From a virus, in IMG/VR virus record IMGVR_UViG_3300019360_000017, positions 1 through 50,298 of that record: 50,298 nucleotides of DNA; one strand, written 5' to 3'. Below, in pieces: positions 11,671 to 37,797 of this stretch. Within the stretch, counting starts at the first letter, position 1. Every line of letters begins with the position of its first letter. The notes under the pieces were generated by a model. That model worked only from the letters and a program-made list of their open reading frames with translations. It was not told the origin of the DNA and did no database searches. The translations under genes were made by a program, and so were the position numbers.

Positions 11671-11710
11671 GCGGCCGATGAAAATCGGCCGCTGAACCGT
11701 CTCTTAGGTA
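11671..11710 (+). promoter_or_regulatory. Conserved element A before the late operon (CCGAT-N18-CGTCTCT)
   Basis: CCGAT at 11675-11679 and CGTCTCT at 11698-11704 have the same 18-nt spacing as at 37797-37768 (-) and 1929-1900 (-). Here the first box also forms a perfect 9-bp hairpin with a GAAA loop (11671-11692). The other copies lack that full hairpin, so the sequence, not the fold, is conserved. It probably promotes the structural operon. Confidence 0.6.
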
Positions 11711-11935
11711 ATGACCCTTGAGACGTGGATCGGACACGATGACCTCCTGGCGTTCTGCGCGGTCTGGTTGGGATGCGGAGGCGTCGGTGCCTTGATGCTG
11801 CAAGAACCGGCCTGCGCCACAGGGCCGTTCGACGAACCCCGCCCCCGTGGGTGGTGGCGGATTCCGTGCGGCGCGCTGGGCGGCGTCCTCACGCTGTGCC
11901 TGGGCCTTGCACGGCTACGTTCGCAGCGACCGTAG
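11711..11935 (+). CDS. Small two-TM membrane protein, 74 aa
   Basis: Two hydrophobic segments (LLAFCAVWLGCGGVGALML and PCGALGGVLTLCLGLARL) flank a Pro/Arg-rich loop. It is the first gene after element A. No convincing Shine-Dalgarno is present, and the ATG lies only 7 nt after the CGTCTCT box. The transcript may therefore be leaderless, or translation may really begin further on. A holin-like lysis role is possible from size and topology, with no direct support. Confidence 0.5.
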   Translation: MTLETWIGHDDLLAFCAVWLGCGGVGALMLQEPACATGPFDEPRPRGWWRIPCGALGGVLTLCLGLARLRSQRP

Positions 11936-11937
11936 CG

Positions 11938-12468
11938 ATGCCTGCCGGTCCTGATGATCCGCACGTCGCCTGTTGGCTGTGTGGCGTCCTGTCCCGCGTG
12001 TACGATGACGACTACCGTGAGACGGTTCTGACATGGGATGACGTGGGCGTGCATCTCCGGGCCACCCACGGCCTGACACACATCTCGGCCACCGTCACCG
12101 ACGCCGATCGCCACACACTCGCCCTGCTGGTGACGCATCCGAGCGCCCACAACAGGACACCGCCACCATCCTTGCCTCTCCTGCTGAACATCAACAACGT
12201 CGTGACGCAGATTCATGGCCGCGGGCCGGACGGCACGCTGGCCCTCATTCAAATGCTGCTCCTCTTGGGTGGGGAGCGGTTGCACATCGTGCGCCTGTCC
12301 ATGCCGCAGCCGGAATTGTGCGTGATCGTGAGCGGTACTCCGACGTGGGAGGACGGGCCGAATCCACTCGCGACCCTGCTCACGGGCCAGAAGATCTTTG
12401 GAAAGGCCATCTACGGCCGCGAGGGCCGCGATTTCACCCTCACAGACGCGATCGTGTCGCGCGATTGA
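11938..12468 (+). CDS. Hypothetical protein with C2H2-like zinc-finger N-terminus, 176 aa
   Basis: The N-terminus contains VACWLCG followed about 26 residues later by HLRATHG, a CxxC...HxxxxH arrangement like a single zinc finger. The C-terminal 90 residues are beta/alpha (LPLLLNINNVVTQIHGRGPD, ALIQMLLLLGGERLHIVRLS, ELCVIVSGTPTWEDG). Start 11938 is 2 nt after the previous stop. Position at the head of the late operon suggests a packaging or late-regulatory accessory protein; I do not recognise the family. Confidence 0.6.
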   Translation: MPAGPDDPHVACWLCGVLSRVYDDDYRETVLTWDDVGVHLRATHGLTHISATVTDADRHTLALLVTHPSAHNRTPPPSLPLLLNINNVVTQIHGRGPDGTLALIQMLLLLGGERLHIVRLSMPQPELCVIVSGTPTWEDGPNPLATLLTGQKIFGKAIYGREGRDFTLTDAIVSRD

Positions 12469-12588
12469 TACCGCCGCGCTTCCATCCTCCCGTCGCTCCT
12501 CAGACAATCCCCCCAGCACCGACCCGTTCCGTTGACGGGCGGCTCCTCCCGATCGACGGAGGTGGCACGCGGGTCGGTGCGTGTTCCC

Positions 12589-13038
12589 ATGACCGCACTC
12601 ACGCAGGATGCCTCACTGACCGCGGACGAACGCGCCTGCGCGGACCTACGACGTCGCGGCTGGCGCCCGGACCAGATCGCCCGACATCTCGGCGTCGATC
12701 GCGAGATCGTGCGTGAGCACCTGTTCGCCGCTCGCAAGAAGGGCGCGTTGCAGGATACGGCGGCGCTCCTCGATCATCTCGCCGTGCCGCTGGCGATTGA
12801 CAACGTGATCGAACAGCTCATGGCCGGCGACGTGCCGACGTCGCTCGAAGTCCTGAAGGGCCGCGGGCACCTGCGGCAGCACACGCGGCAGGACGGGACG
12901 GCGGGCGGCCCGACGATGATGGCGTTGCAACTCAAGATCGAGATGCCGGCGGGCGCCTCCGTGGTCGAACCGGACGCCCTGATCGGTCAGGTTGTTGGCG
13001 TGCCGCGCGTCGTCGCCGCCGCCGCTGACACGGAGTAA
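12589..13038 (+). CDS. terS: Probable small terminase subunit (HTH protein), 149 aa
   Basis: Residues ~10-50 carry a helix-turn-helix (ADLRRRGWRPDQIARHLGVD followed by REIVREHLFAARKKG) resembling the DNA-recognition domain of small terminases. A helical middle segment (AVPLAIDNVIEQLMAGDVPT) could support ring assembly. It lies one gene before the large terminase. The start is uncertain: ATG 12589 lacks a clear Shine-Dalgarno, and an in-frame TTG at 12532 would add 19 residues. The assignment is by motif plus position. Confidence 0.6.
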   Translation: MTALTQDASLTADERACADLRRRGWRPDQIARHLGVDREIVREHLFAARKKGALQDTAALLDHLAVPLAIDNVIEQLMAGDVPTSLEVLKGRGHLRQHTRQDGTAGGPTMMALQLKIEMPAGASVVEPDALIGQVVGVPRVVAAAADTE

Positions 13039-13132
13039 GCCACGACACGCGGTCGGGTCTGAGCTGGCGGCTCGCCGATCGCACACATCCACCTGAACGG
13101 GGTCCAGCCGCCGGAGCGCGGCAGGCCCCGAC

Positions 13133-13744
13133 GTGCCCGTTCTCGCCCTTCAGCCCCCGCGTGCTCGCCCCACGGGCGTTCGTCTGATTGACGATCTCGT
13201 GGGGCCAGACCCGGACCGGCTTCCGCGTCCCCCCACACCGCGCCCGGCGGTGATGCGTGCCGCCACGCCGTACGAAACGAACGTCCAGCCGGCGGTGCTG
13301 GGGCTCCGACGTGCGCTCGCGCCGATCGCGAAGGCCATCGTTCCAGATCCCACCGATCCGACGATCTACGTCCATCCGCTGGGAATGGCGAGCGGCCCGG
13401 CGCGGCGTGGCGTGGGCGCGGCGGCACGCGGGATCGGGGATCTCCTGGATGACGCGCTCCGCGGTCTGCGCGCGACCGGCGACGACGCGATCGAGGTCGT
13501 CGATCCGCGCGCGGCCACAGCGGCCGTGAATGCGTCCGGCGAGAGCGCCGCGTCGTTGGAAGCGCTGGGGCGCCGTGCGTGGGAACAGCAGACCGGCCGT
13601 CGTCTGGTGCGCCTCGATCGTGGCGGCCGAGAGACACCGTGGATCGGCGAGCCGGGCGACGTGCGCGCCAACCCCGGTGAACGCATCGGCTATCGGCATC
13701 CGGACGGGCGCTTTGAAGAGATCACGCGCGGACGGAGTCGCTGA
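13133..13744 (+). CDS. Hypothetical late protein between terminase genes, 203 aa
   Basis: Pro-rich N-terminus, then a segment of repeated small residues (MASGPARRGVGAAARGIGDL) and a C-terminal Gly/Arg-rich region (RRLVRLDRGGRETPWIGEPG, GYRHPDGRFEEI). It starts at GTG 13133 with GGCAGG 7 nt upstream. The stop overlaps the large terminase ATG by one base (TGATG), so translation is coupled. The look, with a disordered N-half and a short C-terminal domain, resembles the other Pro/Ala-rich virion-associated proteins of this phage. Function unknown. Confidence 0.65.
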   Translation: MPVLALQPPRARPTGVRLIDDLVGPDPDRLPRPPTPRPAVMRAATPYETNVQPAVLGLRRALAPIAKAIVPDPTDPTIYVHPLGMASGPARRGVGAAARGIGDLLDDALRGLRATGDDAIEVVDPRAATAAVNASGESAASLEALGRRAWEQQTGRRLVRLDRGGRETPWIGEPGDVRANPGERIGYRHPDGRFEEITRGRSR

Positions 13745-15210
13745 TGCCGAAGCCGGTGCATGTGAACGAGTCGAACGAATTTCGGCTCTTGTATCACCCC
13801 TATCAGCAGGCGTTCTTGAAGGCGCGACGCCTGCGCCTTGCGGATGGCAGCCGCGCGTTCCATCGCTTCTGTTTCATCGCCGGGCGACGATCGGGGAAAA
13901 CGTTGGGCGGCGCGATCGCCGCCGTCGAAGAGGCGACCGTCCCGAAGACGCTGGGCTGGTGCATCGCCCCGACCTACGGTGATCTGCACGACTATGTGCT
14001 GCCGGCCGTGATGCAGGTCTTGCCGCAGGCGTGGCTCGCGCCAGGCAAAGACGGCTGGTCCGCCTTCCATCAGCGCCTCACCTTGAAAAACGGATCGCAG
14101 ATCGCCTTCCGATCCGCCGAAGATCCCGAACGCATGCGTGGACCGGGGCTGCACTGGCTCTGGATCGACGAGGCCAGAAAGACGAGCCCGGTGGTCTGGG
14201 ACACCGTCCGCCCGGCGCTGACCGAGCACCGCGGCGCCGCCATCCTCACCACCACGCCGAACGGTTACGACTGGGTCTACCGAGAGTTCTGGCAGCGCGC
14301 GGCTCACCCCGGCAGGCAGAGGCCGGGGTACTGGGCCGGCCGGTGCAAGACGATTGATAACCCCGCGATCCCCACCGAAGAAATCGAGGAAGCGCGCGCG
14401 ACGACGGATGCGTTGTGGTTCCGCCAGGAGTATGAAGCGGAGTTCGTGGTCTTCGAGGGGTCGATCTACGGCGAGCGCCTGGATGCGTGCGTCCTGCACA
14501 CCGACGAGGCGGTGCGCGCACGCTTCCTGCCGGAGTGGCCCACGATTCCGGCGGGCGTGCCGGTCCTGATCGGGCTCGATCCGGGCGCGGATCATCCCTT
14601 CGCCGCCGTCAAGATCATCGCGACGCCCGCCGGTCTGCTTGTCGTGGGCGAGTACCGGCGGCGCATGACCGCGTACGCCGACCACGCGGAGGGCCTTCGC
14701 ACGCTCGCCCGCAGCCACGACGACGTGTCGTGGGCGATCGACCGTACCGCGACCCAGGCGCAGATCGAACTGGCCGTACATGGCATTTCGTCGAGCGCGG
14801 CGGACAACAACGTCACGCTGGGCATTCAACGCGTGCAGAGCTGGCTGAAAACCCAGCGCATCGGCTTCGTGGCGTCGCGGTGTCCACTCTTGCTCGAAGA
14901 GCTACACGGCTATCGATGGAAGGATACGCAGACGAGCCGCGGCGAGAAGGGACGGGAGCAACCGTTCAAGCAGGATGACGACCTCTGTGACGCGCTCCGC
15001 TATGCGGTGATGCTGTGGCCCGAACTGCCGCAGGTGCCCGCGCCGGTCGTCGGCCGCGATCGACGCCAGATTCCGGAAGACCTCCGCTGGGCCTGGGAGC
15101 GCGAGCAGCGCTGTTCCCGCCCGCGCGCCGAAGGCGAGATTGATTGGTCTATCGACCTCGACCCGCACGCCGACGACTGGTCGCCGACCGGCGATCTGTG
15201 GATCTCCTAA
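13744..15210 (+). CDS. terL: Terminase large subunit, 488 aa
   Basis: DNA-packaging motor. Walker A is GRRSGKT (residues 47-53). Walker B is HWLWIDEA (~137-144), followed by the coupling segment AILTTTPNGYDWVY. The RNase H-like nuclease has LIGLDPGADHPF (~276-287), a middle acidic residue in WAIDRT, and the closing D-D-D-L-C-D-A-L-R-Y-A (~411-421). Length is normal for a phage terminase. ATG overlaps the previous stop. It packages concatemeric DNA through the portal encoded two genes downstream. Confidence 0.95.
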   Translation: MPKPVHVNESNEFRLLYHPYQQAFLKARRLRLADGSRAFHRFCFIAGRRSGKTLGGAIAAVEEATVPKTLGWCIAPTYGDLHDYVLPAVMQVLPQAWLAPGKDGWSAFHQRLTLKNGSQIAFRSAEDPERMRGPGLHWLWIDEARKTSPVVWDTVRPALTEHRGAAILTTTPNGYDWVYREFWQRAAHPGRQRPGYWAGRCKTIDNPAIPTEEIEEARATTDALWFRQEYEAEFVVFEGSIYGERLDACVLHTDEAVRARFLPEWPTIPAGVPVLIGLDPGADHPFAAVKIIATPAGLLVVGEYRRRMTAYADHAEGLRTLARSHDDVSWAIDRTATQAQIELAVHGISSSAADNNVTLGIQRVQSWLKTQRIGFVASRCPLLLEELHGYRWKDTQTSRGEKGREQPFKQDDDLCDALRYAVMLWPELPQVPAPVVGRDRRQIPEDLRWAWEREQRCSRPRAEGEIDWSIDLDPHADDWSPTGDLWIS

Positions 15211-15212
15211 CG

Positions 15213-15587
15213 ATGTGGATCAGTGCTGCTGTCTTGTCGCAACTGGACGCGCGCGCGGTGCAGGCCGAACAGCGCGTGACGGATCTCGCCCGCGAATTGG
15301 CCGTCGCTCGCGCGCAACTCGCCGCGGCGCAGCAACGCGCGGACCTCGCGCAGAACAACTTTGAATGGGCGCGGCTACGACTCAACCAACTCGAAGGGGA
15401 GCGGGCGGCGCTGTTGACGCATGTGCTGAAGTTCCCGATCGCCGCGATGACGATCGAACGGCAGGACGCCGCACCAGGATCGGGTGTGCCCAGCGTCGCG
15501 GGGCTCTCGTTCGACGACGTGGGTGACGCATCCGCCGCCGCGCTGGGCATCGCGCACGACGTGGATGGGCGCGTGCAGTACCGCTGA
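15213..15587 (+). CDS. Coiled-coil protein between terminase and portal, 124 aa
   Basis: Residues ~8-70 form one long heptad-rich helix (LDARAVQAEQRVTDLARELA, ARAQLAAAQQRADLAQ, LRLNQLEGERAALLTHVLKF). The remaining 50 residues are mixed and acidic. ATG 15213 is 2 nt after the terminase stop, so it is probably translated by reinitiation. Small coiled-coil proteins at this position could assist packaging or portal assembly. No family recognised. Confidence 0.65.
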   Translation: MWISAAVLSQLDARAVQAEQRVTDLARELAVARAQLAAAQQRADLAQNNFEWARLRLNQLEGERAALLTHVLKFPIAAMTIERQDAAPGSGVPSVAGLSFDDVGDASAAALGIAHDVDGRVQYR

Positions 15588-15596
15588 GGCCCGCCA

Positions 15597-17978
15597 ATGG
15601 ATCTCACGCCGCCACTCACGCCCGCACCGGAGACCGGCGGCCCTTCGCCGCCCGGTCTCGATGATGCGATCGGTCAGGCGTTCGGTCGCGCGCCAGCCCT
15701 GATCCGGAGCACGCCGAACTACGACGATGACAGGGCGCTCTTGGCACTCTTCGACACCTGGAAACGCCAATGTCTCGATAGTCGCTGGGTGTTTGAACGG
15801 AGCTGGTGGCAAAAGCTCCTGTACGTCCTGGGCCGGCAGTGGATCTACTACGACCGACGTCGCGGGCAATGGCTCGACAAGCGGCTGCAACGCTGGATGC
15901 CGAGACCCGTCACCAACAAATGTAGCGAAGCCGTCGAGGCACTGCTCGCGTTGTTCTCAGCCGTCAAGTTGGGGACGCTCGCGCGGCCGATCGGCGGCGC
16001 CGTGGCGAACGTCGCCGCTGCGGAGGTCGCCGACGAAGTGCAGCCCTTCATCCACGACGAACACGCGATGGATGGCGTGCTGCGCGATGCGGACTTCTGG
16101 CTGATTGTCACCGGCAACAGTTTTCTGCATCCGTGCTGGGACAAGGACGCGGAGAGCGGGACGATCGTCGTGCCGTACGAGCGCTGTGTGACCTGTCAAC
16201 GCGTCTGGCCGCCGAGTCAGCTTGTCGGGCCGACCGCGCAGTGCCCCGGATGTGGCGCGACCACGTTCGAGCCGGCGCAGGCCGAGACGGGCGGCCCGAT
16301 CGCGGACACGCTGCACACGGGCCGCGGGCGGACCGATGCGGTATCGCCGTGGGAAATCGCGGTTCCGCCGATCTACACCGATTTCGAGACCACCCCGGTC
16401 GTCTTGCGGATGTCCTGGCGGCCGAAGCACTACTACGAACAACACTATCCGGATCTCGCGTCCACGCTGGCGTTTGAGAAGACGCCAAGCGAACGGTCGC
16501 TGCAACTGCTCCGCACCCTCGCGACGCAAAGCGATCTGTCCGCGATGCCGCTGAGTTTTCTCGCGGGCGGTGGTCAGGACAGCGAGACCAGCGGGCTCGC
16601 CGAGTACGAACTGTGGCTCAAGCCCACCCGTGACTATCCCGAAGGGCTCTATCTCCGTGTCGTGGGCGACGGCAGCGGTGCGCGCGTCCTGCGCGACGCC
16701 AGCGGCACATCACCGGGACCACTGCCGTATCAGACGCGCGACAATCGGCCCATCTTTCCCTGGCTCCACATTCCCTATCAGCCCGTGGGCGGGCGTCTGT
16801 GGGCACGCGGTCCCCTCGATCTCGCGGTGCAGAAGCAAGATCAGATCAACCAGCTTGACGCGTTGATCCAGATGATCGTGCAGCGCATGGCCAATCCCAT
16901 CTGGCTCGAACCGAAGGGCGCCGAAGTACGCAGTTTCACCGGGGAGCCCGGCCTTGTCGTGAAGTACAACGCACTCGCCGCGAGCGGCGCGAAACCGGAA
17001 CGGATTCCCGGTGAAAACGTCCCGCCCTCGCTTTTCCAGTTGCGCCAGCAATATCTCACGGATTTTGAACAACTCGTTGGCACCTACGATGTCATTAAAG
17101 GGGCGAAGCCGACCGGCGTGGAAGCCTTTTCCGCCCTGCAACTCTTGGTGGAACGATCGCAGTCGCGATTCGCGACGGTGCTCGCCGCGCGCGGGGAGGC
17201 GTATCGTCAGTGGTATCAAATCGCCCTCGAATTGGAGCGGCAGTACGGACCGACCGAGCGGATCGTGTCGGTCCTCTCACCCAATCGGGGCTGGACGTTC
17301 CGCCATTTCGAGAACGCCCAACTACAAGGCGCGATCGAGATCCGCGTCGAAGATGGATCGCAGGCCCCCAAGACGAATCTTGGCCGGCGCGCCGCGATCG
17401 AACAGGCAAACCAACTGCGCTTGATCGCGCCCGACGATCCTGAGCAGCGCTACACCATCCTGACCAGTCTCGGCCTGTCTGATCTCGTGCAAACGCTCGA
17501 CTACGATGTCAAAAGTGCGTTGCAGGAACAGGATGCGTTCGAGCAGTGGGCCGCGGCACGGCAGTTCGACGTGGCGCAGCTCCAGCAGATGTGGGCGATG
17601 CACACGCAACAGGTCATGCGCGCGCAACTCGCCGCCCAGCAGGCGACGCTGGTCGGTACGATGCCGGCGCCGCCACCGCCGCCGCCCGAGATGACGCCCT
17701 TTGCCGTGAAGCTCTATCACGAGCCGGCCGTGCATTTCGCCGAACACCGGAAGTGGGCGAACAGCGACAGCGCGCGCGAGATTTTTCAGGAGTTTCCGAT
17801 CCTCGAAACGTTCTTCACCGCGCATCTCCAACAGCATCAACAGATGATGCCCTCTGCGATGATGCCCGGCCCGCCGACGCAAGGTGGGGCGATGGAACGC
17901 TCGCTCGCCGAGAGCGGCAACGCGCGCGACGTGCCACGCGGCCAAGGTGAGGGCTGGCAAGGGCGCGGCCCTGAGTAG
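15597..17978 (+). CDS. P22-like portal protein with inserted zinc ribbon, 793 aa
   Basis: The large size, position after terL, and segments such as SWRPKHYYEQHYPD, WLHIPYQPVGGRLWARGPLD and QKQDQINQLDALIQMIVQRM (the portal stem/clip region) indicate a P22-type dodecameric portal. The C-terminus is Gln/Pro-rich. Around residues 197-225, VPYERCVTCQRVWPPSQLVG followed by QCPGCGATTF forms a CxxC...CxxC zinc ribbon within the wing, which is unusual for portals. GAGG precedes the ATG. It serves as DNA channel and head-tail vertex. Confidence 0.85.
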   Translation: MDLTPPLTPAPETGGPSPPGLDDAIGQAFGRAPALIRSTPNYDDDRALLALFDTWKRQCLDSRWVFERSWWQKLLYVLGRQWIYYDRRRGQWLDKRLQRWMPRPVTNKCSEAVEALLALFSAVKLGTLARPIGGAVANVAAAEVADEVQPFIHDEHAMDGVLRDADFWLIVTGNSFLHPCWDKDAESGTIVVPYERCVTCQRVWPPSQLVGPTAQCPGCGATTFEPAQAETGGPIADTLHTGRGRTDAVSPWEIAVPPIYTDFETTPVVLRMSWRPKHYYEQHYPDLASTLAFEKTPSERSLQLLRTLATQSDLSAMPLSFLAGGGQDSETSGLAEYELWLKPTRDYPEGLYLRVVGDGSGARVLRDASGTSPGPLPYQTRDNRPIFPWLHIPYQPVGGRLWARGPLDLAVQKQDQINQLDALIQMIVQRMANPIWLEPKGAEVRSFTGEPGLVVKYNALAASGAKPERIPGENVPPSLFQLRQQYLTDFEQLVGTYDVIKGAKPTGVEAFSALQLLVERSQSRFATVLAARGEAYRQWYQIALELERQYGPTERIVSVLSPNRGWTFRHFENAQLQGAIEIRVEDGSQAPKTNLGRRAAIEQANQLRLIAPDDPEQRYTILTSLGLSDLVQTLDYDVKSALQEQDAFEQWAAARQFDVAQLQQMWAMHTQQVMRAQLAAQQATLVGTMPAPPPPPPEMTPFAVKLYHEPAVHFAEHRKWANSDSAREIFQEFPILETFFTAHLQQHQQMMPSAMMPGPPTQGGAMERSLAESGNARDVPRGQGEGWQGRGPE

Positions 17979-18052
17979 TCGTTGACAAGAATCGCGCACG
18001 TCTGAGAACCGCCGCGCTTCAGTGATCGTTTCGCGCCGCTTACCGTCGCAGT

Positions 18053-18808
18053 ATGCACGACGACGGCAACGGCGCCCCTCTCGCACCGGGCGCTCCCGAC
18101 ACGCCTCCGACTCCCGAGCAGACGCCTCCCGCCTCACCGCCCGCGTCGCCCCCGCCGGTCGATCAGGCCGCGCGTCCATCGGTGGACTACGTCCCACGGC
18201 AGCACTTCGACGCGCTGCTGTCGCATGTGCAGGCGCTTCGCGATGAGGTCGCGCGGTCCCGCACGCCGAAACCCGCGCCCCCGCCGCCGGACGCCGAAGC
18301 CGACGCGATCCGGCAACAGTTCTTCAAGCTCTTTCCCGCGGCCGAAAAGTTGTTCGGTCTGCCCGTCGATCGCGTCGCGGAGTTGCTTGACCAAGCCCCG
18401 CATCTCAACGCGCAGGCCGAGCACTACTGGAGCACGTTCGGCGCACACATGCTCCGCTCGCTCGATGAGCGCGTGCGGCAGGCGTACGGGGGCGCCCCGG
18501 ACGCGAAGGCCCGGCGTTGGATCGAAGTCGGTTTTATTGATTGGGTTGAAAACGATCCCACGGCGAGGCAGCGCTACCTTGCGCAAGACCCGAGTCTCGT
18601 CTCGGACTACTGGACCTTCATCGACGGGACGGTGCTCGCGCCCGCTCGTCGCTCCGCGCTCGCGACCGAGCAGCAGCGCGCCACCAAGCGCGCCGCGCTT
18701 CCGTCCGCGGGGCCGAGGACGCAGCCGGTCGGCACGCCGCCCCCCACACCCAAAGACGAAGACGAACTGCATGCCGCGGCATGGGCGGCGCTTCAGGCGC
18801 AGCGGTAA
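18053..18808 (+). CDS. Probable scaffolding protein, 251 aa
   Basis: Lies between portal and capsid genes, the usual scaffold position. The N-terminal 60 residues are Pro-rich and disordered (PGAPDTPPTPEQTPPASPPA). The core is helical (FDALLSHVQALRDEVARSRT, AIRQQFFKLFPAAEKLFGLP, RVAELLDQAPHLNAQAEHYW). The C-terminus is charged and ends AAAWAALQAQR. Disordered, helical and charged is typical of scaffolds, but no specific family motif is visible. The ribosome site is weak. It ends 9 nt before the capsid gene. Confidence 0.55.
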   Translation: MHDDGNGAPLAPGAPDTPPTPEQTPPASPPASPPPVDQAARPSVDYVPRQHFDALLSHVQALRDEVARSRTPKPAPPPPDAEADAIRQQFFKLFPAAEKLFGLPVDRVAELLDQAPHLNAQAEHYWSTFGAHMLRSLDERVRQAYGGAPDAKARRWIEVGFIDWVENDPTARQRYLAQDPSLVSDYWTFIDGTVLAPARRSALATEQQRATKRAALPSAGPRTQPVGTPPPTPKDEDELHAAAWAALQAQR

Positions 18809-18817
18809 GGAGACCCC

Positions 18818-20128
18818 ATGCCCAGCCAAGGCGCGGACACCCAAACGATCGACGGGCTGCTCACGGACTACTACGAGGATTTCGTCTCGGAGAACGTCCA
18901 GAACCGGAATCCGGTCAAAGACCTCTTTCGTTTTCAGACCGCCGAGTTCGCCGGCCGTGAGGTGGTCTACAGCGCGCATGTGAGCCGCAACGTGTCGCCG
19001 ATGTTCGTTGGCGAAGACAGCGCATTCGCGGATGCCGGCGTGCAGGGGCACGTCCAGTTGCGGATTGGGCAGCGGAAGCTGATGTCGCGGATTCGCCTCA
19101 CCAGTGAGGCCATTCATGACTCGATGTCGTCCGAGGGCGCCTTCAAGCAGGCGCGCAAGGACGAGATGACGGCCATCATCAACGATCTGGCGCGCAAGCA
19201 GGAGTACGCGTTGTGCGCCGATGGACGCGGCGTGCTCGCGTTGGTCGCGACCGCGACGCCCACCGCGTCCAACATCCTGCCGCTCGACTCGCCCGGTGGG
19301 ATCGCCCACCCCGCGTTCGGGAATCGGTTCGTCCAGATCGGCATGTACGTCGGCTTCGTCAATCCCGCGACCGGGCAACTGCGGAGCGGCATCCGCAAAG
19401 TCGTCGGCGTGGCGGCCAACGGCAGCTCCATCACGCTCGACGCAGCGCCGGCCGCGGGGGTGCAGGACAACGATTACCTCGTTCAGAGTGCGAACGCCCA
19501 GGTCTCCGATGTGCTCGATACGTCCTATGAGCACGCGTTCTGGGGGCTCATAGCGTTGGTCGATGATGGCACCTATCGCAACAACTATTTTGGGGTCGAT
19601 CGCAGCGTGTACGGCGCGTTTCAGTCGTTCGTGAAGGCCGCCACTGGCGCGCTGTCGGTCGATGTGATTCAGCAGATCAGCGACGTCCTCGATCAGAAGC
19701 TCGGGGGGCGGATCGATCGCGCGATCTGTCATCACTCGACGCGTCGGCTCTACATCAATCTGCTCGCGCAAGATCGCCGCTACATCAACGGGCATGTCCT
19801 ACGACCCGATGGCGGGACCGCGGCCATCAAGCAACAGGACTTGACGGTCGGCGAAGTCCCGATCACGCCGATCAGGGATTTCCCCCTCGATATGCTGATG
19901 TTGCTCGACAAGGCCAACGCCGGCTGGGTCTGCTACGAATCAGAACCGGGCAAATGGGTGGATGAAGACGGCAGCATTCTCGTGCGTGTCGGATCGGGTT
20001 CGAGCGGACGTGACAGTTTCGAGGGGTGGTATCGCATGCGCAAGCAGTATCACTGCCGGTATCCGGGCTACAACGCGCGGATGGATGGCATCACCGGCCA
20101 GACGTTGATCGTCGTGCGTGCGGAATGA
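18818..20128 (+). CDS. Major capsid protein, HK97-fold, 436 aa
   Basis: Strong AAGGAG before the ATG and a position after portal and scaffold point to the major capsid protein. The sequence fits the HK97 fold: N-arm (LLTDYYEDFVSENVQNRNPV), E-loop region (VQLRIGQRKLMSRIRLTSEA), a spine helix with KQARKDEMTAIINDLARKQE, and an A-domain with YINLLAQDRRYINGH and a hydrophobic C-terminal sheet. There is no N-terminal delta domain or protease-site motif, consistent with a separate scaffold gene. About 436 residues is typical of P22/podovirus capsids. Confidence 0.85.
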   Translation: MPSQGADTQTIDGLLTDYYEDFVSENVQNRNPVKDLFRFQTAEFAGREVVYSAHVSRNVSPMFVGEDSAFADAGVQGHVQLRIGQRKLMSRIRLTSEAIHDSMSSEGAFKQARKDEMTAIINDLARKQEYALCADGRGVLALVATATPTASNILPLDSPGGIAHPAFGNRFVQIGMYVGFVNPATGQLRSGIRKVVGVAANGSSITLDAAPAAGVQDNDYLVQSANAQVSDVLDTSYEHAFWGLIALVDDGTYRNNYFGVDRSVYGAFQSFVKAATGALSVDVIQQISDVLDQKLGGRIDRAICHHSTRRLYINLLAQDRRYINGHVLRPDGGTAAIKQQDLTVGEVPITPIRDFPLDMLMLLDKANAGWVCYESEPGKWVDEDGSILVRVGSGSSGRDSFEGWYRMRKQYHCRYPGYNARMDGITGQTLIVVRAE

Positions 20129-20138
20129 GGAGGACACG

Positions 20139-20525
20139 ATGAACGCCCTCGTCCCGCTCGACTTCGTCACGATCGGCAATCGCACCTCGAAGCCGCTGAC
20201 CGTCGTGTACGACGGCCGTCAGTGGATGCTGCCGCCACATCCCGTGACGGTGTCGCTCCCGCGGATCGTCGCGGACGCGGCGTGCCGGCAGCATCCAGTC
20301 ATGGGCACTGAAGATCCGTACGATCCCCGTTCGTACGACCTGCTGGTCTACGTCAAGGAATGGGATCAGCCGAGCACGCCGATTGAGCAGAGCACGGCCA
20401 AGGAACGGCTGAATCGTGCGCTGCTGCCGGCGGACGTGCAGAAGACGCAGCTCGTGGAGCATGGCACGTCGCGCGTGCAGGCGGTCCGCGACGGGGATCC
20501 CGCCGCGAGGTTCACGAAGTCATGA
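20139..20525 (+). CDS. Hypothetical head-region protein, 128 aa
   Basis: A beta-rich N-half (PLDFVTIGNRTSKPLTVVYD, QWMLPPHPVTVSLPRIVADA) precedes a charged helical C-half. GAGGA lies 6 nt before the ATG at 20139. It directly follows the capsid gene and overlaps the next start by ATGA, so it belongs to the head module. A decoration or completion protein is possible. No family recognised. Confidence 0.65.
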   Translation: MNALVPLDFVTIGNRTSKPLTVVYDGRQWMLPPHPVTVSLPRIVADAACRQHPVMGTEDPYDPRSYDLLVYVKEWDQPSTPIEQSTAKERLNRALLPADVQKTQLVEHGTSRVQAVRDGDPAARFTKS

Positions 20526-21469: not shown

Positions 21470-21498
21470 CTGCCGCCAGCGGCCACGGAGCACTGGAC

Positions 21499-21541
21499 GA
21501 GGGCGCGCGGCGTTCTTGGACCCCTTCCGTCGCGCACCCTC
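21499..21541 (+). other. Stem-loop between head genes
   Basis: GAGGGCGCGCGGCG (21499-21512) pairs with CGTCGCGCACCCTC (21528-21541): 12 Watson-Crick pairs, one G-T and one mismatch, with a 15-nt loop. No T-run follows, so it may be an attenuator or a processing/stability site in the late mRNA. Confidence 0.5.
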
Positions 21542-21566
21542 GTCACCTTCCCTCACGCATCCGACC

Positions 21567-21968: not shown

Positions 21969-21970
21969 CC

Positions 21971-26672: not shown

Positions 26673-26813
26673 ACGGCCGCGGTTCCTGGCTGGGTCCATC
26701 TGCGGTATCCGATGAGAGAGCATGGCCGGCCTCTCTCTTCAGCCCTCCGCGACGCGTCCACGACGCCCGATGCACCCTCGGTGTCGCCGACCCAGGCGTA
26801 CGGCGGGGCATCG

Positions 26814-27641: not shown

Positions 27642-27644
27642 CGC

Positions 27645-28091: not shown

Positions 28092-28096
28092 CGACG

Positions 28097-28534: not shown

Positions 28535-28539
28535 ACAGG

Positions 28540-29388
28540 ATGGCATCCCCCAGCGACCCCTTTGGTCCGCTCGCGCGCGCCCCTCGACGCCCGTACCTCG
28601 TGCCGCATCCCCCCCTTGAGGGCGATCCGAACCTCGTACCGCCGCCGCTGGGGCCACCACCACCGAGACCGCCGGGCCTTCAGATCGCGAATCCGTGGCA
28701 GCCAGACCAGAGCATCGACGATCGGCTCTCGCGATCGTCGGCTCCACCATCGACGCCGGCTCGTCGGCAAGGGATCTGGTACGAGGGCAGTCCCGATTGG
28801 GGGAGCGAACGCGCGGGCTTCCTCGCCCGCGGCAGCTCGCCGGAGATCGCGCCGATGGCCCACGCGCTGGAAGCCCGCGACGCGATCGAGGAGAACGCCA
28901 CGTCAGGCCGCCGGCCGGATCTGCTCGCGCAGATGCAGACGCAGCTCGCGCTACGCGCGCTCCGCAACGCGAGCGCCCGCGACGAGCAGCAAATGCAACT
29001 CGCCGACCCCGCGTATCAGCGCGCGCAGATCGTGCCGGACGCAGAAGCCGAGGCCGCCGCGTCTCTGGCGCCTATCGGACGGCAGGCGCGGGCGCTTCAG
29101 GATGATGAAACGCTTGCGCAGGCCCGCGCGACGGCCGAACAGTCACAAGACCTGCGCGTCGCGCCGCGGGAGCTGTCGCGCCTGCTCTTTGACTTCCAGC
29201 TCAGACGTCAGCTCGCCGAGATCGACGCCGCTGGGCGCAATCCGCTCGCGGGTCTCCTGAGCGGCGGCGCCAGCGCACCGCCCCCACCCACCAGCCCCGC
29301 GGGGACGCCGCGCGTCGGCCACCAGCGTCAGACGCGCGATGGCCGCGTCGTCGTATGGGACGGGCAGGGCTGGGCCTACCAGGAGTAA
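28540..29388 (+). CDS. Hypothetical virion-associated protein, 282 aa
   Basis: The N-terminal 75 residues are Pro-rich and disordered. The middle is a long charged helix (MAHALEARDAIEENATSGRR, LLAQMQTQLALRALRNASAR, ALQDDETLAQARATAEQSQD, LSRLLFDFQLRRQLAEIDAA), suggesting coiled-coil assembly. The C-terminus has a small beta turn motif (QTRDGRVVVWDGQGWAYQE). ATG 28540 follows a short AACAGG. It may be an internal or tail-tube component ejected with the downstream 1522-residue protein. Confidence 0.6.
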   Translation: MASPSDPFGPLARAPRRPYLVPHPPLEGDPNLVPPPLGPPPPRPPGLQIANPWQPDQSIDDRLSRSSAPPSTPARRQGIWYEGSPDWGSERAGFLARGSSPEIAPMAHALEARDAIEENATSGRRPDLLAQMQTQLALRALRNASARDEQQMQLADPAYQRAQIVPDAEAEAAASLAPIGRQARALQDDETLAQARATAEQSQDLRVAPRELSRLLFDFQLRRQLAEIDAAGRNPLAGLLSGGASAPPPPTSPAGTPRVGHQRQTRDGRVVVWDGQGWAYQE

Positions 29389-29393
29389 CCGTC

Positions 29394-32300
29394 GTGCCGC
29401 GCTATGCCGATCCCGCAGATGTGCTGCCGGAGCGCTATGCCGACCCGGCGGATCTGCTGCCGGAAGAAGACGAACCGGAGTACGGCCTGCTCGATCGCGT
29501 GCTGACGACCGGGCTCCGCGTCGTGCCCTCGATCGCGGGCGCGGCCGGCGGCGCGGCGCTCGGGGCTGGTGCGGCCGGCGTGGGCGCGGCACCGGGTCTG
29601 ATGATGGGCGGCGCCGCGGGCGGCGCCGCGGGCGAATGGCTCGCGCAAGCGTACGAACGCGCGCGGGGCTTGCGGGCCGACTACTCGCCGGGCGCGATTG
29701 CCGTCGAAGGCGCGCTTGGGGCGATCCCCATCGGAAAAGCCGCGACCGTCGCCCGCGCCGCGGCGAAGGGCGCGGGCATGAGCACGGCCGGCACCGCGTT
29801 GCACGCGGTCGTCGAAGAAGGCGAACTGCCCGACGCCTTCAGCCTGACGTTGAGTGCGGGGCTCGGCGCGCTCCTGGGCGGCGGCGCTGACGTCGTCAGC
29901 CGACGATTGGCCGCACGGCGCACGCCGCTCGACCCGCCGCGCACGACGTTCCACGAGTTTGTGGCCGAAGACGTGCCAGGCACGACGCCGCGCACGTCCG
30001 CCGACGATCTGATGGATGAAGCGGCGGCGGCGCGCGACCTGGATGAATGGCTACAGTCGCAGCAGCCGAGTGGCATTCGGGTGCAGCCGGCGACCGCGCC
30101 GTATGACGCGGACGCCGACGTCGTCGAGCGGCTAGCGCGCGAGCGCGCGGTTGATCGCGCGATCCGTCAACGCGTCGCGCGCGAACGCGCACGCGCCGGA
30201 TCAGAGTTTGCCGCCTACGCCGCTCGCGATGCGGAGATGCGCGCGGACCCCCACGCGGCGTTCGAGGCCGTCATTCCCGATCGGCTGAAAGGCCCGCCGC
30301 CGCGCCGGTACGCCCGCTGGGAGGATCTGGACCCGCGCACCGCGCCGCCCGCCGAACGCGCCCTGCGTTGGCTGATTCCCGAACGCGTGCTGAAGGGCGG
30401 GGGCTTCGCCGAAGCCGCCGAGCGCGCGCGCCGCGGCGCGGCCGACTATACGCCGCTGCAACGCCTGTTCGAGCCGCGCCGCCGGCCACGCGCGAGGCCG
30501 ACCGAGTCCGCCCCGCACGTACCGCCCAGCGACGCACCGCCGGCCATGCCGCCCGTCGTGGATAGGCTCGATACCGGCGAGACGCAGCCGCGTCTGCCGG
30601 AGGCGGGCGTCGTCCGCGACCGCGATGTTCCAACGCCGACGTTTGAGGCGCCATTCGCGTTGACGTCTGAAGCATCACGCCCATCGTCGACGCAATTCGA
30701 TCTCCTCGGGTCGCTGCTCACCCCCGCCGACACGCCGTCCGTGCCGTGGCTCCAGCGCGTGGTGGACGACGCCGTCGCGCGCGGCTATCCGGGCACGGCG
30801 GCGGACGTCGAACAGGACATCGTGCAACGGGCACGAGCGCTCTACGACGCGGAACGCGGCGCAGGGGCAACCGAGCGCACACCGACAGCGTTGTTGGAAG
30901 CCATTCGGCGGGCCGGAGGGATTCGCACGACCGACGCGGATCTGTCAGGCGAACTCCGGCGACTCCGCGAGTTCAAAGACCCGCGGCGGGTGAATTCGAT
31001 CGCGGGCGTGCAAGGCGTCTTTCGGCGGCAGGGGCACACACTCGATGACATGGCCGTCCGACTCAGTCGCGAACACGGCTGGACGGATCTGACCGATCCG
31101 GCAGTACTGCTCGATGCGATCGAGGACGCGGCCGTCGCCGCGCGCGCCGGCCGCGCCGACCTCCCAGCGTTCAATGCGGAACGCTACGCGGAGGGAGCCG
31201 GCGTGCGCCTCGGTGAACCGTGGTGGGACGACGCACCGCCGTTCGTCCGCGAGCTCGCGCCCGAGCTCGTGGACGAGCCCGGCGCGGCGGGCCGCATCAG
31301 CGCGGAGCTGGCGGCCACCCTCGGCAGCTCAGTCGCCGGGGGGCTCGCGGGCACGACGCAGGGGGAGACGCCAGAAGAGCGCATCGCGTTCGGCCTGGGC
31401 GGCGCGGTCGCGGGCGGCGCGGGAGCGCACGCGCTCGCGCGATTCCTCAGCGGACGATCGCCGCGCACCGCGGCGCCGACGCCGAAAACGGCGACCACCG
31501 CGGCGCGAACCATCCGCACGCCGACCGGCCCGCTGCGCGACGAGCCGGGTGATGTCCCGATCCTGGAGACCGCGCACGTCCCTGCCCCGCCGGCCGTGCG
31601 ACAGCCGAAGGCGCAGCGCGAAGGCCTCGGCCTTGAGGCCTTCCCGGAAGAGCAGCGCGCGCCCCTACAAGCGTTGATCAACGACCTCGGCTACGACCCG
31701 CTCGACACGCAGCGGCGGCATCGTCAGCCCGTCGAGCGCACGATGGCGCTGGCGCAGCACATGCGGATCAACACCACAAAGAAACTCGCACCGGGTGCGA
31801 ACATGAATGCAGCGGGACATGCCGCCTACGGCAACATGGTGGCGACGGTGCAAGACAAACTGCGCCGCCTCAGCGTACGCATTCAGGAAACCGGCGGTGC
31901 CGATCCGGATCTGCTCGAACTCGGACAGCTCAACGCGGCGCGTGAAGCGTTGTTTTACAGCTACGCAGGCCTGCGCACCGAGGCCGGCCGCGCGCTGCAA
32001 ATCTACTCGGCGATGAAACGCATCATGCCGAGTGAACTGCGGCTCGTGCGCGAGATGTTGGATCGCGGCCGACTGCGAAAGGACATGGCCGAACTCGCGG
32101 AGGTGTTCGCGAAACTGCCGGACGATTCGGTGCAGCAGTGGGAGATCCTACGCCGTCACGATGTCCGAACGCTCAGTCAGCGCGTGAGCGACTACTACAT
32201 GAGCAACATCCTGTCCGGCGTTCAGACGCAATTGCGCAACGTGTTCGGCAACGCATCGCGCACGCTCGTGCGCATGGGCACGAAGGCCACCGCCGGCTCG

Positions 32301-33962
32301 TTTGATGCTCTCCGCACGCTCGTCACGGGCCGCGAGCGCCAGGTCTTTACGCGTGAGGCGTTCGAGGAGGCGAAGGGCATCGTCGCCGGCTTCGATCAGG
32401 CGTGGCGTGATACGTGGGAGACCGCGACACTCGGATTCTCGCCGCGCGCGCTCAACGAAGGACTGGAGGATGTGACGGATCTGTACGTGCCTCATCGGGA
32501 GTTTGCCGGCCGCGGTCGGAACCCGCTGAATTGGCCGCATCGTGGGATGGAGGCCGCCGATCGCTTCTTCCGAAACTTGAACGCCTCAATGGAGTGGCAC
32601 GCGCTCACGTACGCCCAGGCGCGGCGTGAGGTGGGCGCGGGCGCGACCGATGACGCGCTTGCGAAACGCGTCGCCGAACTGCGGCTGAACCCCAGCAAGG
32701 AGCTGCGCCGGCAAATGGCGCGCAGCGCTGAGCGCGCGGTCTATCAAGAAGATCCGGGGCCGGCCATCAACCATCTGGCGGCGATCAAGAAGCATGTCCC
32801 CGCCTTGCAGTTCGTCTTTCCCTTCGTTCAGACCGCCCACAACATTCTGAGGCAGGGGGCCGAGCACAGTCCGTTGGGGTTCTTCATGGCGCGCGCGCGC
32901 GCGGGCGATCTTCGCGAGCGCACCATCGCGCAGGCAGAGGCCGCGGTGGGATCGCTGGCCTTGATGCCCATCGCGTACCTCGCCGCCACCGATCGCCTGA
33001 GCGGCTCTGGTCCCCGCGATCCGGCGGAGCGCGCAGCGCTGTACGAGCGCGGCTGGCGGCCAAACGCCGTGAACATGCCGCTGCCCGACGCACTCGCCCA
33101 GGCGTTCGGCGCGTCGAAGTCAGACGACGGCACGTACTGGGTCTCGTACCAGCTCGCGCAGCCGTTCGCCTTCCCCGCGAGCATCCTGGCGAATGCGTTC
33201 GAGGCATTTCACGAGGTCACACGCGACGCGCAGCATCGCAACGTCGAAGAGAGCGCGCAGCAGATCACCGCGCAGGCCATCGCGCGCATCGGGCGGTCCG
33301 CGCTCGATCAGTCCTATCTCTCAGGTGTGTCAAATCTCGTGAAGGCGGTCAACGACCCCGACCGGTCGGCCAGTAGTTTTCTCGCGCAGCTTGCGGGCGG
33401 CTTCGTGCCGCTGTCCGGCGCGATGCGCAACGCGGCGCGGGTCGTGGATCCGGTCGTGCGCGATCCAGAAACCATCAGCGAGACGATTCAGACCGGGATA
33501 CCGGTCGCCAGCCGTGGCGTGCAGCCTCGTCTCGATCGCTGGGGAGAGGAGATCACGCGGGAAGGCAGTTCGCCGCTGGTCGTTCCCGAAGTCGAACCCG
33601 TCGAGCGCGACTGGATTGCCGAGGAACTGGCGCGGCTGGGGATATCGGTGGGGCTTCCGTCTGATCGGTTGTCGCTGCGGGACGTGGCCGGCACCGCGCG
33701 TCAGCTTGCGCCAGAAGAGGCCCAGCAGATCCGACAGATGCGCGGGCGGACGACGCGCGCGACGCTGGGGGCCGTCATGGGCTCGCCCGGATACGCGGCG
33801 CTCCCTGACGCCGCCAAAGCGGTCCTGGTGCAGCGCGCGATGCGAGCGGGCGCGGACGACGTCAACGACATCGCCCGCGCCGCGTTGAACGCTCAGCGTC
33901 CCGATCTCCTGCGGTTCCTGACAGAGTCCACCCGCGAGCGGGCCGCAGACACCTATCGATAG
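29394..33962 (+). CDS. Large polyvalent/ejection-type virion protein with LPD38-like domain, 1522 aa
   Basis: Starts GTG with AGGAG 8 nt upstream. The N-terminus repeats RYADPAD(V/L)LPE twice. Two Gly/Ala-rich membrane-active stretches follow (~40-85 and ~610-660). A linker at ~387-415 (RLDTGETQPRLPEAGVVRDR) is shared with the DUF3560-methyltransferase. Residue ~540 has SIAGVQGVFRRQGHTLDDMA. The C-terminal ~600 residues resemble phage large-polyvalent-protein domain 38 (FVFPFVQTAHNILRQGAEHS). Such proteins are thought to enter the host with DNA. A lytic enzyme domain was not seen. Confidence 0.8.
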   Translation: MPRYADPADVLPERYADPADLLPEEDEPEYGLLDRVLTTGLRVVPSIAGAAGGAALGAGAAGVGAAPGLMMGGAAGGAAGEWLAQAYERARGLRADYSPGAIAVEGALGAIPIGKAATVARAAAKGAGMSTAGTALHAVVEEGELPDAFSLTLSAGLGALLGGGADVVSRRLAARRTPLDPPRTTFHEFVAEDVPGTTPRTSADDLMDEAAAARDLDEWLQSQQPSGIRVQPATAPYDADADVVERLARERAVDRAIRQRVARERARAGSEFAAYAARDAEMRADPHAAFEAVIPDRLKGPPPRRYARWEDLDPRTAPPAERALRWLIPERVLKGGGFAEAAERARRGAADYTPLQRLFEPRRRPRARPTESAPHVPPSDAPPAMPPVVDRLDTGETQPRLPEAGVVRDRDVPTPTFEAPFALTSEASRPSSTQFDLLGSLLTPADTPSVPWLQRVVDDAVARGYPGTAADVEQDIVQRARALYDAERGAGATERTPTALLEAIRRAGGIRTTDADLSGELRRLREFKDPRRVNSIAGVQGVFRRQGHTLDDMAVRLSREHGWTDLTDPAVLLDAIEDAAVAARAGRADLPAFNAERYAEGAGVRLGEPWWDDAPPFVRELAPELVDEPGAAGRISAELAATLGSSVAGGLAGTTQGETPEERIAFGLGGAVAGGAGAHALARFLSGRSPRTAAPTPKTATTAARTIRTPTGPLRDEPGDVPILETAHVPAPPAVRQPKAQREGLGLEAFPEEQRAPLQALINDLGYDPLDTQRRHRQPVERTMALAQHMRINTTKKLAPGANMNAAGHAAYGNMVATVQDKLRRLSVRIQETGGADPDLLELGQLNAAREALFYSYAGLRTEAGRALQIYSAMKRIMPSELRLVREMLDRGRLRKDMAELAEVFAKLPDDSVQQWEILRRHDVRTLSQRVSDYYMSNILSGVQTQLRNVFGNASRTLVRMGTKATAGSFDALRTLVTGRERQVFTREAFEEAKGIVAGFDQAWRDTWETATLGFSPRALNEGLEDVTDLYVPHREFAGRGRNPLNWPHRGMEAADRFFRNLNASMEWHALTYAQARREVGAGATDDALAKRVAELRLNPSKELRRQMARSAERAVYQEDPGPAINHLAAIKKHVPALQFVFPFVQTAHNILRQGAEHSPLGFFMARARAGDLRERTIAQAEAAVGSLALMPIAYLAATDRLSGSGPRDPAERAALYERGWRPNAVNMPLPDALAQAFGASKSDDGTYWVSYQLAQPFAFPASILANAFEAFHEVTRDAQHRNVEESAQQITAQAIARIGRSALDQSYLSGVSNLVKAVNDPDRSASSFLAQLAGGFVPLSGAMRNAARVVDPVVRDPETISETIQTGIPVASRGVQPRLDRWGEEITREGSSPLVVPEVEPVERDWIAEELARLGISVGLPSDRLSLRDVAGTARQLAPEEAQQIRQMRGRTTRATLGAVMGSPGYAALPDAAKAVLVQRAMRAGADDVNDIARAALNAQRPDLLRFLTESTRERAADTYR

Positions 33963-35824: not shown

Positions 35825-36394
35825 TCACGGACACATCGCCTCCCAGGTCCGGACATACAGAGTGGTGATGGTCCGCACGGTGGATGCGGGGATGGTCGTG
35901 GGATCCTGCGGCGAGGGCAGGGCGCGGATCTGCGCGTCCAGCGCGGTCGCCTGGACCAGTGCCTGCTCGATCTGCGCGGGCCACGCCCGCGGTGGCCGCG
36001 CACTCGGCGCGCAGGCACTCGTAGCGGCGGCGTGGGGGATCTCGAGCGCCCGTCCCAGGGCTCTCACTTCGCGCAGGACGCCGGCATACTGCGCATCGAC
36101 CACGCGGTCCCACGCGTGACGGGTCGACGGTGCACGCCCCGCAGCGGCACGGTGATGGCCCAGCGCCGCCAGGGCCGCGAGGCGCGCACGCAGCACCGTT
36201 GCGCGCCGCAAATCCGTGGGGGCGGGACGAACGTGGAGGGAGAGATCAACACTCGACAGCGGGCCGACGCCCGCGTAGGCCGCGCGTTGTTGGGCCACGG
36301 AGGCGGCGATCCCGTCGATGTGGAGGCGCCCGGCGACGTCGGCCACGCGCACGTCATACACGTCAGCGACCGCGAGGGCGAGCCGCGCGTCCAT
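35825..36394 (-). CDS. Apparent C-terminal part of the anti-sigma gene, out of frame, 189 aa
   Basis: The frame reads MDARLALAVADVYDVRVADV, AGRLHIDGIAASVAQQRAAY, VLRARLAALAALGHHRAAAG and ends YVRTWEAMCP, a normal protein-like composition. Upstream, the frame stays sensible for a few codons (ATLRLE) until a stop at 36421, while the anti-sigma frame becomes Arg/Cys/Trp/Pro-rich beyond about 36400. One missing base around 36400-36420 would join them. There is no ribosome site before ATG 36394, so it is probably the broken 3' part of one gene. Confidence 0.5.
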   Translation of the reverse strand: MDARLALAVADVYDVRVADVAGRLHIDGIAASVAQQRAAYAGVGPLSSVDLSLHVRPAPTDLRRATVLRARLAALAALGHHRAAAGRAPSTRHAWDRVVDAQYAGVLREVRALGRALEIPHAAATSACAPSARPPRAWPAQIEQALVQATALDAQIRALPSPQDPTTIPASTVRTITTLYVRTWEAMCP

Positions 36395-36825
36395 CTCCAG
36401 GCGCAGCGTCGCTCGCCGTCACCGGGCGTGGCGACCACCGCGGATGAGGGGGTGTGAGCCGTCCTCGGTGGCCGCGAGGCGACGGGGGCGGCTGGCGCGG
36501 CGCCGGTCCACCGTCGTACCGTCGCCGCCAGCCACTCGACGGCGCTGGCGAGCACGGCGGGCTGCGCGTACGAGAGACCGCCCACCAGGAGGGCGGCCAC
36601 CGCCGCACGACCGATCCAACTGCGCGTCGGCCAGCGCAGGAGGCGGCGCCGCTGTTGCTGGCGCTCCCACGCGTCGATCTTGGCGAAGATCACGGCCCGT
36701 TGCTCCTCCACGGTGCGCGGGGCTCTCGTGGAGGGTGGCAGCAAGCTATCCTGCCAACGCACAAACGCGCGGGCTTTCTCCACCCATTCGCGGTCATCGG
36801 GGTCGCGCTGGTCGTGGTCAGTCAT
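36064..36825 (-). CDS. Membrane-anchored anti-sigma factor, probably frameshifted after ~140 residues
   Basis: The N-terminal ~70 residues are charged and cytosolic (REWVEKARAFVRWQDSLLPP, TVEEQRAVIFAKIDAWERQQ), followed by one membrane segment (SWIGRAAVAALLVGGLSYAQ). This is the layout of membrane anti-sigma factors and it lies right after the sigma gene (8-nt overlap). After about residue 140 the frame looks like non-coding shadow, while the protein-like frame continues in 35825-36420. Start 36825 has AAGAAGG upstream. A lost C-terminus may leave the sigma factor constitutively active or change its release. Confidence 0.6.
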   Translation of the reverse strand: MTDHDQRDPDDREWVEKARAFVRWQDSLLPPSTRAPRTVEEQRAVIFAKIDAWERQQQRRRLLRWPTRSWIGRAAVAALLVGGLSYAQPAVLASAVEWLAATVRRWTGAAPAAPVASRPPRTAHTPSSAVVATPGDGERRCAWRWTRGSPSRSLTCMTCAWPTSPGASTSTGSPPPWPNNARPTRASARCRVLISPSTFVPPPRICGAQRCCVRASRPWRRWAITVPLRGVHRRPVTRGTAWSMRSMPASCAK

Positions 36826-37387
36826 GACTGGCATCCTTCTTTTCCGTCAGAGTCGTGAACGTGCCGTCGAGGATCGTCCGAGCGCTGTCGAGCGCGCGCT
36901 GAACTTGCTGGCGGCTCAACCCCGTCTGCTCCGCAATCTCCCATTGGCGGCACCCTTGGCCGAACAGGACCACGCAGGCATATTGCCGCTCGGTCAATCG
37001 CGCGAGCGCTTCGGCCATCGCCGCGGCTTCCTCCGCGGTCCGACCGGGGCTGGGCACCTGCGCCGCCGCGGTCAGGTCCGCCCGTCGGCTCTGATACGCG
37101 GCCACCATGCGATCACGATGGACGCGTGACGCCACGACCACGAGCCAGGCGAACGGGTCTTCCAGACGCTCGTCGCTCCTCAACGCCTGATATAGCCGCA
37201 ACCACGCCTCTTGACAGGCATCCTCGGCGCGGTCGACGCGCCCACGGCATTCCGCCGTCATCACGGCCAGGAGCTTGGCGCCGTGTTCGCCGTACAGCCG
37301 GTGGCACACGGCACGGATGGCGTCCTTCGACGTGGTCGTGTTGGCGGCCACAGGTAACCAGCGCAGAAAGATGTGATCGTCGGCCAT
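36818..37387 (-). CDS. ECF-type sigma-70 family factor, 189 aa
   Basis: Region 2 is present (RAEDACQEAWLRLYQALRSD, PFAWLVVVASRVHRDRMVAA) and binds core and -10 DNA. Region 4 has a helix-turn-helix (EALARLTERQYACVVLFGQG, WEIAEQTGLSRQQVQRALDS) for -35 DNA. The length is usual for ECF factors and no region 1.1 or 3 is seen. ATG 37387 overlaps the stop of the membrane-protein gene (TAATG). Together with the downstream anti-sigma gene, a classic autoregulated unit. The upstream CCGAT-N18-CGTCTCT element is the prime candidate for its own promoter. Confidence 0.85.
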   Translation of the reverse strand: MADDHIFLRWLPVAANTTTSKDAIRAVCHRLYGEHGAKLLAVMTAECRGRVDRAEDACQEAWLRLYQALRSDERLEDPFAWLVVVASRVHRDRMVAAYQSRRADLTAAAQVPSPGRTAEEAAAMAEALARLTERQYACVVLFGQGCRQWEIAEQTGLSRQQVQRALDSARTILDGTFTTLTEKKDASHD

Positions 37388-37662
37388 TACCTCATACCGA
37401 TCAGGACGATGAACAGGAGCAGGCCCACGCACTGCCAGCACCCGCGCCACATGCGAAGTGTCGCCGGTCCCAGCAGTGGACGGACCCGATGAACGGTGCG
37501 CGTGTGCCACACCCAGGCCGACAGGAAGACCACGATCCACCAGCCGCGCCGCGGACCAAAACAGACGCCGTCCAGAGCCAGCAGGAGTACGATCATCGCC
37601 AACGCCAATTCCACACCGACGCTGCATAGATGACGATCGCGGATCCCTTCCAGATACAACAC
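37387..37662 (-). CDS. Small membrane protein, three TM segments, 91 aa, first in the sigma operon
   Basis: Hydrophobic segments VELALAMIVLLLALDGVCFG, WWIVVFLSAWVW and CVGLLLFIVLIGM. GTG at 37662 was chosen because AGGAGGT lies 6 nt upstream; the longer frame from 37734 (TTG) adds a soluble N-terminus with no ribosome site. Its stop shares a base with the sigma factor start (TAATG). It may sense or transmit a membrane signal to the anti-sigma factor. No family recognised. Confidence 0.6.
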   Translation of the reverse strand: MLYLEGIRDRHLCSVGVELALAMIVLLLALDGVCFGPRRGWWIVVFLSAWVWHTRTVHRVRPLLGPATLRMWRGCWQCVGLLLFIVLIGMR

Positions 37663-37767
37663 GCGCGGACCTCCTGCGAGAGTGAGGACGCGCCACAGAA
37701 TCCTTGGTGCGGTGTGGCGGCCGCACCAGCCCAAAGGGGGTGGGGCAACACTGGGCGCGTCTATCCT

Positions 37768-37797
37768 AGAGACGAAACAGCGCCCGATTTTTATCGG
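37768..37797 (-). promoter_or_regulatory. Conserved element B before the sigma operon (CCGAT-N18-CGTCTCT)
   Basis: On the minus strand CCGAT (37797-37793) is followed by 18 nt and CGTCTCT (37774-37768). It is about 105 nt upstream of the first gene of the sigma operon. Sequence match to element A extends further (TCGG-GCTG and A/T-rich upstream TTTGA). It is the expected site of sigma autoregulation. The rest of the 37663-37933 gap has no gene. Confidence 0.6.

Follow-up and report, generated by a model that had tools for sequence, protein, structure and literature searches.

A threefold promoter-like element that may connect a prophage ECF sigma factor with the structural operon

The window analysed here, a stretch of DNA of 50,298 nt that is identical to one IMG/VR virus record, contains three copies of the bipartite element CCGAT-N18-CGTCTCT, which head the operon of a phage-borne ECF sigma factor, the structural operon and a small gene pair (83-aa and HhH-like proteins), and no other operon in the window (Table 1). 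From the geometry and positions of the copies we consider it reasonably probable that this sigma factor reads all three of them, including that in front of the structural operon, whose late expression is assumed from its gene content.

Results

The record is treated as a prophage without its left end, because its first 96 bases look by eye like the start of an integrase gene, an excisionase-like gene is present at 150-443 and an attachment-site-like region is followed by host-like genes. The latter region, a tRNA-like 3' end (GGTCCCGAGTTCGATCCTCGGGCGGCCCACCA) at 47225-47290 also recognized by eye, lies on the border between phage and host-like genes and is probably the right attachment site; no complete tRNA was called by ARAGORN near 47.25 kb. 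A leftward block encodes DnaD-like, RecT and RecE proteins. These recombination genes are separated from the structural genes by a block at 34-42 kb, which comprises the sigma operon and the gene of a large outer-membrane protein. The structural operon also includes a glycosyltransferase-like gene with a GtrB-like match (22987-23922). An exact 14-mer, TGACAGGAATCTTT, occurs twice (968-981 on the minus and 8457-8470 on the plus strand; 0.01 expected), upstream of the leftward genes toward xis/int and of the rightward primase-helicase gene, respectively, and may be a second regulatory element, for early genes. An inverted repeat at 8011-8262 with 114-nt arms, 88% complementary and 24 nt apart, is situated between the primase-helicase gene and the leftward early genes and perhaps constitutes a replication origin.

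Table 1. Positions of the promoter-like copies and of the genes discussed in the text
Feature	Position	Strand	Remarks
Copy 1	1900..1929	-	predicted +1 = 1893 (G), 43 nt before GTG at 1850
Copy 2	11675..11704	+	predicted +1 = 11711, A of an ATG
Copy 3	37768..37797	-	predicted +1 = 37761 (G), 99 nt before GTG at 37662
131-aa gene	1187..1582	-	after 83-aa gene; HhH-like stretch by eye only
83-aa gene	1599..1850	-	first after copy 1; no family match
81-aa protein	11160-11405		weak Xre/MbcA/ParS-type (HTH) match; just upstream of KGG gene and copy 2
Structural (late) operon	11711..33962	+	first gene = 74-aa ORF
TerS-like gene	12532	+	structural block
TerL (large terminase)	13744	+	structural block
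Portal	15597	+	structural block
Major head protein	18818	+	structural block
Internal virion proteins	23760 and 29355	+	structural block
Further gene	34322-35326	-	sigma-operon direction; no confident family
Gene with signal-like start	35271-35780	-	sigma-operon direction; no confident family
Likely C-terminal continuation of candidate anti-sigma	35825..36394	-	other frame; GC3 pattern
Candidate anti-sigma	36064..36834	-	ca. 70 polar residues, then one hydrophobic stretch
ECF sigma factor, 189 aa	36818..37387	-	regions 2 and 4 only
Small hydrophobic (membrane) protein, 91 aa from GTG at 37662	37387..37662	-	first gene of sigma operon
Oar/TonB-receptor-like outer-membrane protein, 1040 aa	37934..41056	+	divergent neighbour; no motif copy ahead

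The three sites named in the initial annotation proved to be exactly the matches to CCGAT-N18-CGTCTCT in the window. Shuffled sequence contained 0.01 matches on average, and no shuffle contained three. Since the pattern had been picked after being seen, a leave-one-out test was added, in which a model built from two copies ranked the held-out copy next best, with 31.5, 31.0 and 41.5 bits, compared to 12-19 bits for the best unrelated site among the ca. 100,000 positions of the window. No degenerate or weaker fourth copy was detected in the window. The copies, all from one record, are intergenic and, as annotated, aimed at the next gene on their strand. Copy 1 lies past a terminator-like hairpin at 2128-2110 and is followed by the expected gene pair, but the HhH assignment was made by eye and found no Pfam match. 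Copy 2 starts 19 nt past the stop codon of the KGG gene in front of it, and 6 nt separate the end of its CGTCTCT box from the ATG at 11711; the location of this copy where the structural block begins agrees with the previously suggested link of the motif to the structural operon and provides a promoter element ahead of structural genes as in phages of the phiEco32/7-11 type.

For numbering, the last C of CGTC was set at -10, the place it occupies in promoters of E. coli sigmaE. CCGAT then extends from -36 to -32, and the predicted +1 is a purine in all copies (G, A and G). Of the 36 columns between -36 and -1, 22 are invariant, compared to 4 among the 34 columns upstream of this segment and 1 among the 40 downstream. 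The sequence GG(T/A)A, previously listed as a shared flank behind the second box, is shifted from copy to copy; the in-register invariant is TA at -2/-1. The predicted +1 of copy 2 coincides with the A of the ATG at 11711, and the first message of the structural operon would therefore be leaderless. We regard the three copies as very likely promoters.

The annotated ECF-type -10 is well founded, as CGTCTCT is present in all three copies and conforms to the CGT of the original ECF promoter rule, which combines AAC at -35 with CGT at -10 (PMC8103513). Moreover, the 23 nt between the start of the -35 element and CGTC equal the distance in two experimentally defined ECF promoters; the ECF41 promoter reads TGTCACA-n16-CGTC (PMC3426412), and the sigmaE sites of S. 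coelicolor include GGGAAC-n17-CGTCTC (PMC6767563). The -35 element itself, CCGAT[AG]AAAA in all three copies, does not contain the AAC of the rule; an A-tract in the -35 is common among ECF promoters (PMC8103513). The copies can be assigned to the ECF promoter type with good confidence.

The sigma gene is the only one of the record with a Sigma70_r2 domain. Its product matches the Pfam models Sigma70_r2 (8e-7, residues 31-93) and r4_2 (9e-6, residues 123-170), scores 52.6 bits against the general ECF model TIGR02937 (cut-off 42.9) and has the group IV architecture of regions 2 and 4 only, connected by a linker of <50 residues. The best relative in the PDB is SigJ (5e-6, across region 2), which we take to belong to the ECF41 class and which has the stretches AEDxxQEAWLR and DPxAWLxxVxSRxxxD in common with the phage protein. 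Judged by its sequence, the latter appears to be a divergent ECF factor with a region 2 nearest to SigJ (ECF41 type). In ECF factors, a loop of region 2 reads the -10 (PMC8103513), and according to the alignment the SigJ-like stretch would include this loop. Region 4 barely reaches the cut-off of its Pfam model, and such a marginal match might go with an unusual -35. A single-sequence structure prediction was too poor for use (mean pLDDT 46.5).

Copy 3 is placed directly before the sigma factor's own operon, a layout that fits the proposed autoregulation; this is usual for ECF factors, with FecI-type sigmas given as exceptions (PMC8103513). The operon encodes, in this order, the small hydrophobic protein, which has no family in Pfam, PHROGs or NCBIfam, the sigma factor and a protein with a single hydrophobic stretch, a candidate anti-sigma solely by virtue of its position and this stretch. 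The reading frame of the candidate breaks near 36430 and a coding frame resumes at 36394; the break at 36394-36450 may be due to faulty assembly, to a frameshift or to decay into a pseudogene. No anti-sigma domain was matched in Pfam, PHROGs or NCBIfam, a weak test given the broken frame. As no anti-sigma family was matched, the membrane-signal control put forward in the initial annotation is a guess from the layout, backed by no tested feature, and we consider it doubtful. The divergently encoded outer-membrane protein matches the Pfam families OMP_b-brl_4 (6.6e-51) and CarboxypepD_reg (6.5e-14), and no close relative of it was found in viral contigs, phages or plasmids at the sensitivity used.

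Searches with the terminase and the head protein identified many related phage loci. Among 49 related records, of which 19 measure 40 kb or more, no Sigma70_r2 gene was found; the related loci examined yielded no motif copy, and the remaining genes of the block at 34-42 kb were found in no relative examined. Those Sigma70_r4_2 matches in related phages that were placed, by their coordinates, adjoin TerL and look like the HTH of TerS; they were rejected. In the closest large record (71% identity in TerL, 73% in the head protein, recombination genes in common), a sigma-70-like promoter, TTGAAA-18-TAAACT, precedes the rightward operon. Due to the absence of sigma gene and motif from the relatives and to this sigma-70-like promoter, the sigma module seems to have been added in the present lineage, where copy 2 would have rewired the late operon. 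An intergenic pair search across the relatives revealed no recognisable comparable element, a result of little weight, as the crude gene calls also masked copy 2. One strict and two relaxed scans of all viral contigs for CCGAT-N18-CGTCTCT gave nothing real, two matches being located inside coding sequence. Relatives of the sigma factor were absent from viral contigs and limited to one weak match (E 0.02) in phage records and to distant ECFs in plasmids. The genome contig search yielded a short contig of a Burkholderiales MAG as single match, and in the phylum of that MAG distant ECFs occurred in 6 of 399 genomes; CCGAT-spacer-CGTC was not seen upstream of the four of these six that could be re-aligned. 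The present record is the only genome found with both sigma gene and motif, neither of which was seen in a related phage, and the evidence for their link accordingly comes from a single genome.

Discussion

Consistent with these data we propose a scenario in which the three elements would form one promoter class, read by host RNA polymerase equipped with the prophage ECF sigma. Copy 3 would render the sigma operon autoregulated, copy 2 would start the structural operon at 11711 and copy 1 the small gene pair. A rise in sigma activity, for example through release from the co-transcribed candidate anti-sigma, might then be amplified by positive feedback and switch the virion genes on en bloc. 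In comparison to the initial annotation, which had envisaged a late switch controlled by a membrane signal, the promoter geometry, the ECF-type -10 and spacing, the autoregulated layout and the link to the structural operon have held, and the membrane signal is supported by none of the features tested. The full version, in which a membrane anti-sigma holds an autoregulated ECF sigma above the virion operon of a temperate phage and an envelope signal decides on late expression alongside or instead of DNA damage, is a tentative idea that we would not expect to apply.

The element geometry is generic for ECF promoters and might also be read by an ECF sigma of the host; the prophage would then have tapped a host regulon, and its own sigma would have its targets elsewhere. 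We consider this unlikely, as the sigma operon of the phage is itself immediately preceded by one of the only three copies and autoregulation is common in ECFs (PMC8103513).

Alternatively, CCGAT...ATCGG could be bound by an activator or repressor of the phage, and the promoters so controlled would be of the ordinary sigma-70 kind. CCGAT[GA]AAAATCGG indeed forms an inverted repeat in copies 2 and 3, and the 81-aa HTH/Xre-like protein encoded just upstream of copy 2 is a candidate regulator. However, copy 1 has no such repeat, yet retains CCGAT, the spacing and CGTCTCT. Two of the three copies are devoid of a TAnnnT hexamer near the start, which argues against sigma-70 combined with an activator, and a sigma-70 promoter scan scored none of the three sites. 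The alternative already raised in the initial annotation, an activator site with a sigma-70 -10 after CGTCTCT, is accordingly weak, and we regard this type of explanation as quite unlikely.

The sigma module might also be cargo with its own regulon, the late operon being transcribed mainly from an upstream promoter and copy 2 being of minor importance. The genes of the 34-42 kb block were found in no relative examined, the relatives manage late transcription without a sigma, and no terminator-like site was found on the plus strand just before copy 2. On the other hand, copy 2 is the copy closest to copy 3 (28 of 36 positions) and is situated exactly at the start of the structural block, which makes a minor role improbable. 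A repeated RNA hairpin or another non-promoter element can practically be dismissed: copy 2 folds strongly (z -4.6), but copies 1 and 3 show no clear excess over shuffles (z -1.8 and -0.7), so a shared RNA structure is unlikely, and no Rfam match was found in the window.

Recognition of the three copies by the prophage sigma factor therefore remains our preferred reading. Late transcription of temperate phages is usually credited to antiterminators or to activators acting with sigma-70. If the virion operon were started by an ECF sigma that reinforces its own expression, this would represent another kind of late switch, on which cell-surface signals might possibly act; with three start sites predicted, the idea lends itself to a direct test. 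Searches of the open-access literature, which mostly leaves out subscription papers, yielded no ECF sigma with a demonstrated role in switching the late operon of a prophage.

Among known systems, the FecIRA type likewise has an ECF gene together with genes that encode a single-helix protein and, nearby, a receptor-like protein of the outer membrane. In contrast to FecIRA, no FecR or STN domain was found here in Pfam or NCBIfam, the receptor-like gene is divergent, and FecI-type sigmas are exceptions to autoregulation (PMC8103513). The ECF41 system (SigJ-like; PMC3426412) resembles the present one in region 2, in CGTC at -10 and in the 23 nt from the -35 start to the -10; it differs by its C-terminal extension and its TGTCACA -35, compared to 189 aa without extension and a CCGAT -35. 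Autoregulated ECF/anti-sigma operons of bacteria (PMC6767563, PMC8103513) share the CGTCTC -10, the spacing, the promoter before the own operon and an adjacent gene whose product has a single hydrophobic stretch, whereas here the -35 contains no AAC, the anti-sigma is a candidate and the targets include a virion operon.

Late genes driven by a phage-encoded sigma have precedents: phiEco32 (gp36) and 7-11 (SaPh711_gp47) encode sigma factors that redirect host RNA polymerase to late genes, that of 7-11 reading the bipartite promoter GTAAtg-(16)-aCTA (PMC8948821). An earlier in silico prediction for 7-11 had named another element (PMC4331800), which is a warning for the present case. The likeness consists in the route from a phage sigma to late genes. 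These phages were studied during infection, and no anti-sigma is described in the relevant passages; their sigma and promoter sequences differ from those reported here. The present gene resides in a prophage, in an operon that bears its own copy of the promoter. If the proposed scenario is true, its novelty lies in an autoregulated ECF sigma with a possible membrane anti-sigma in a prophage.
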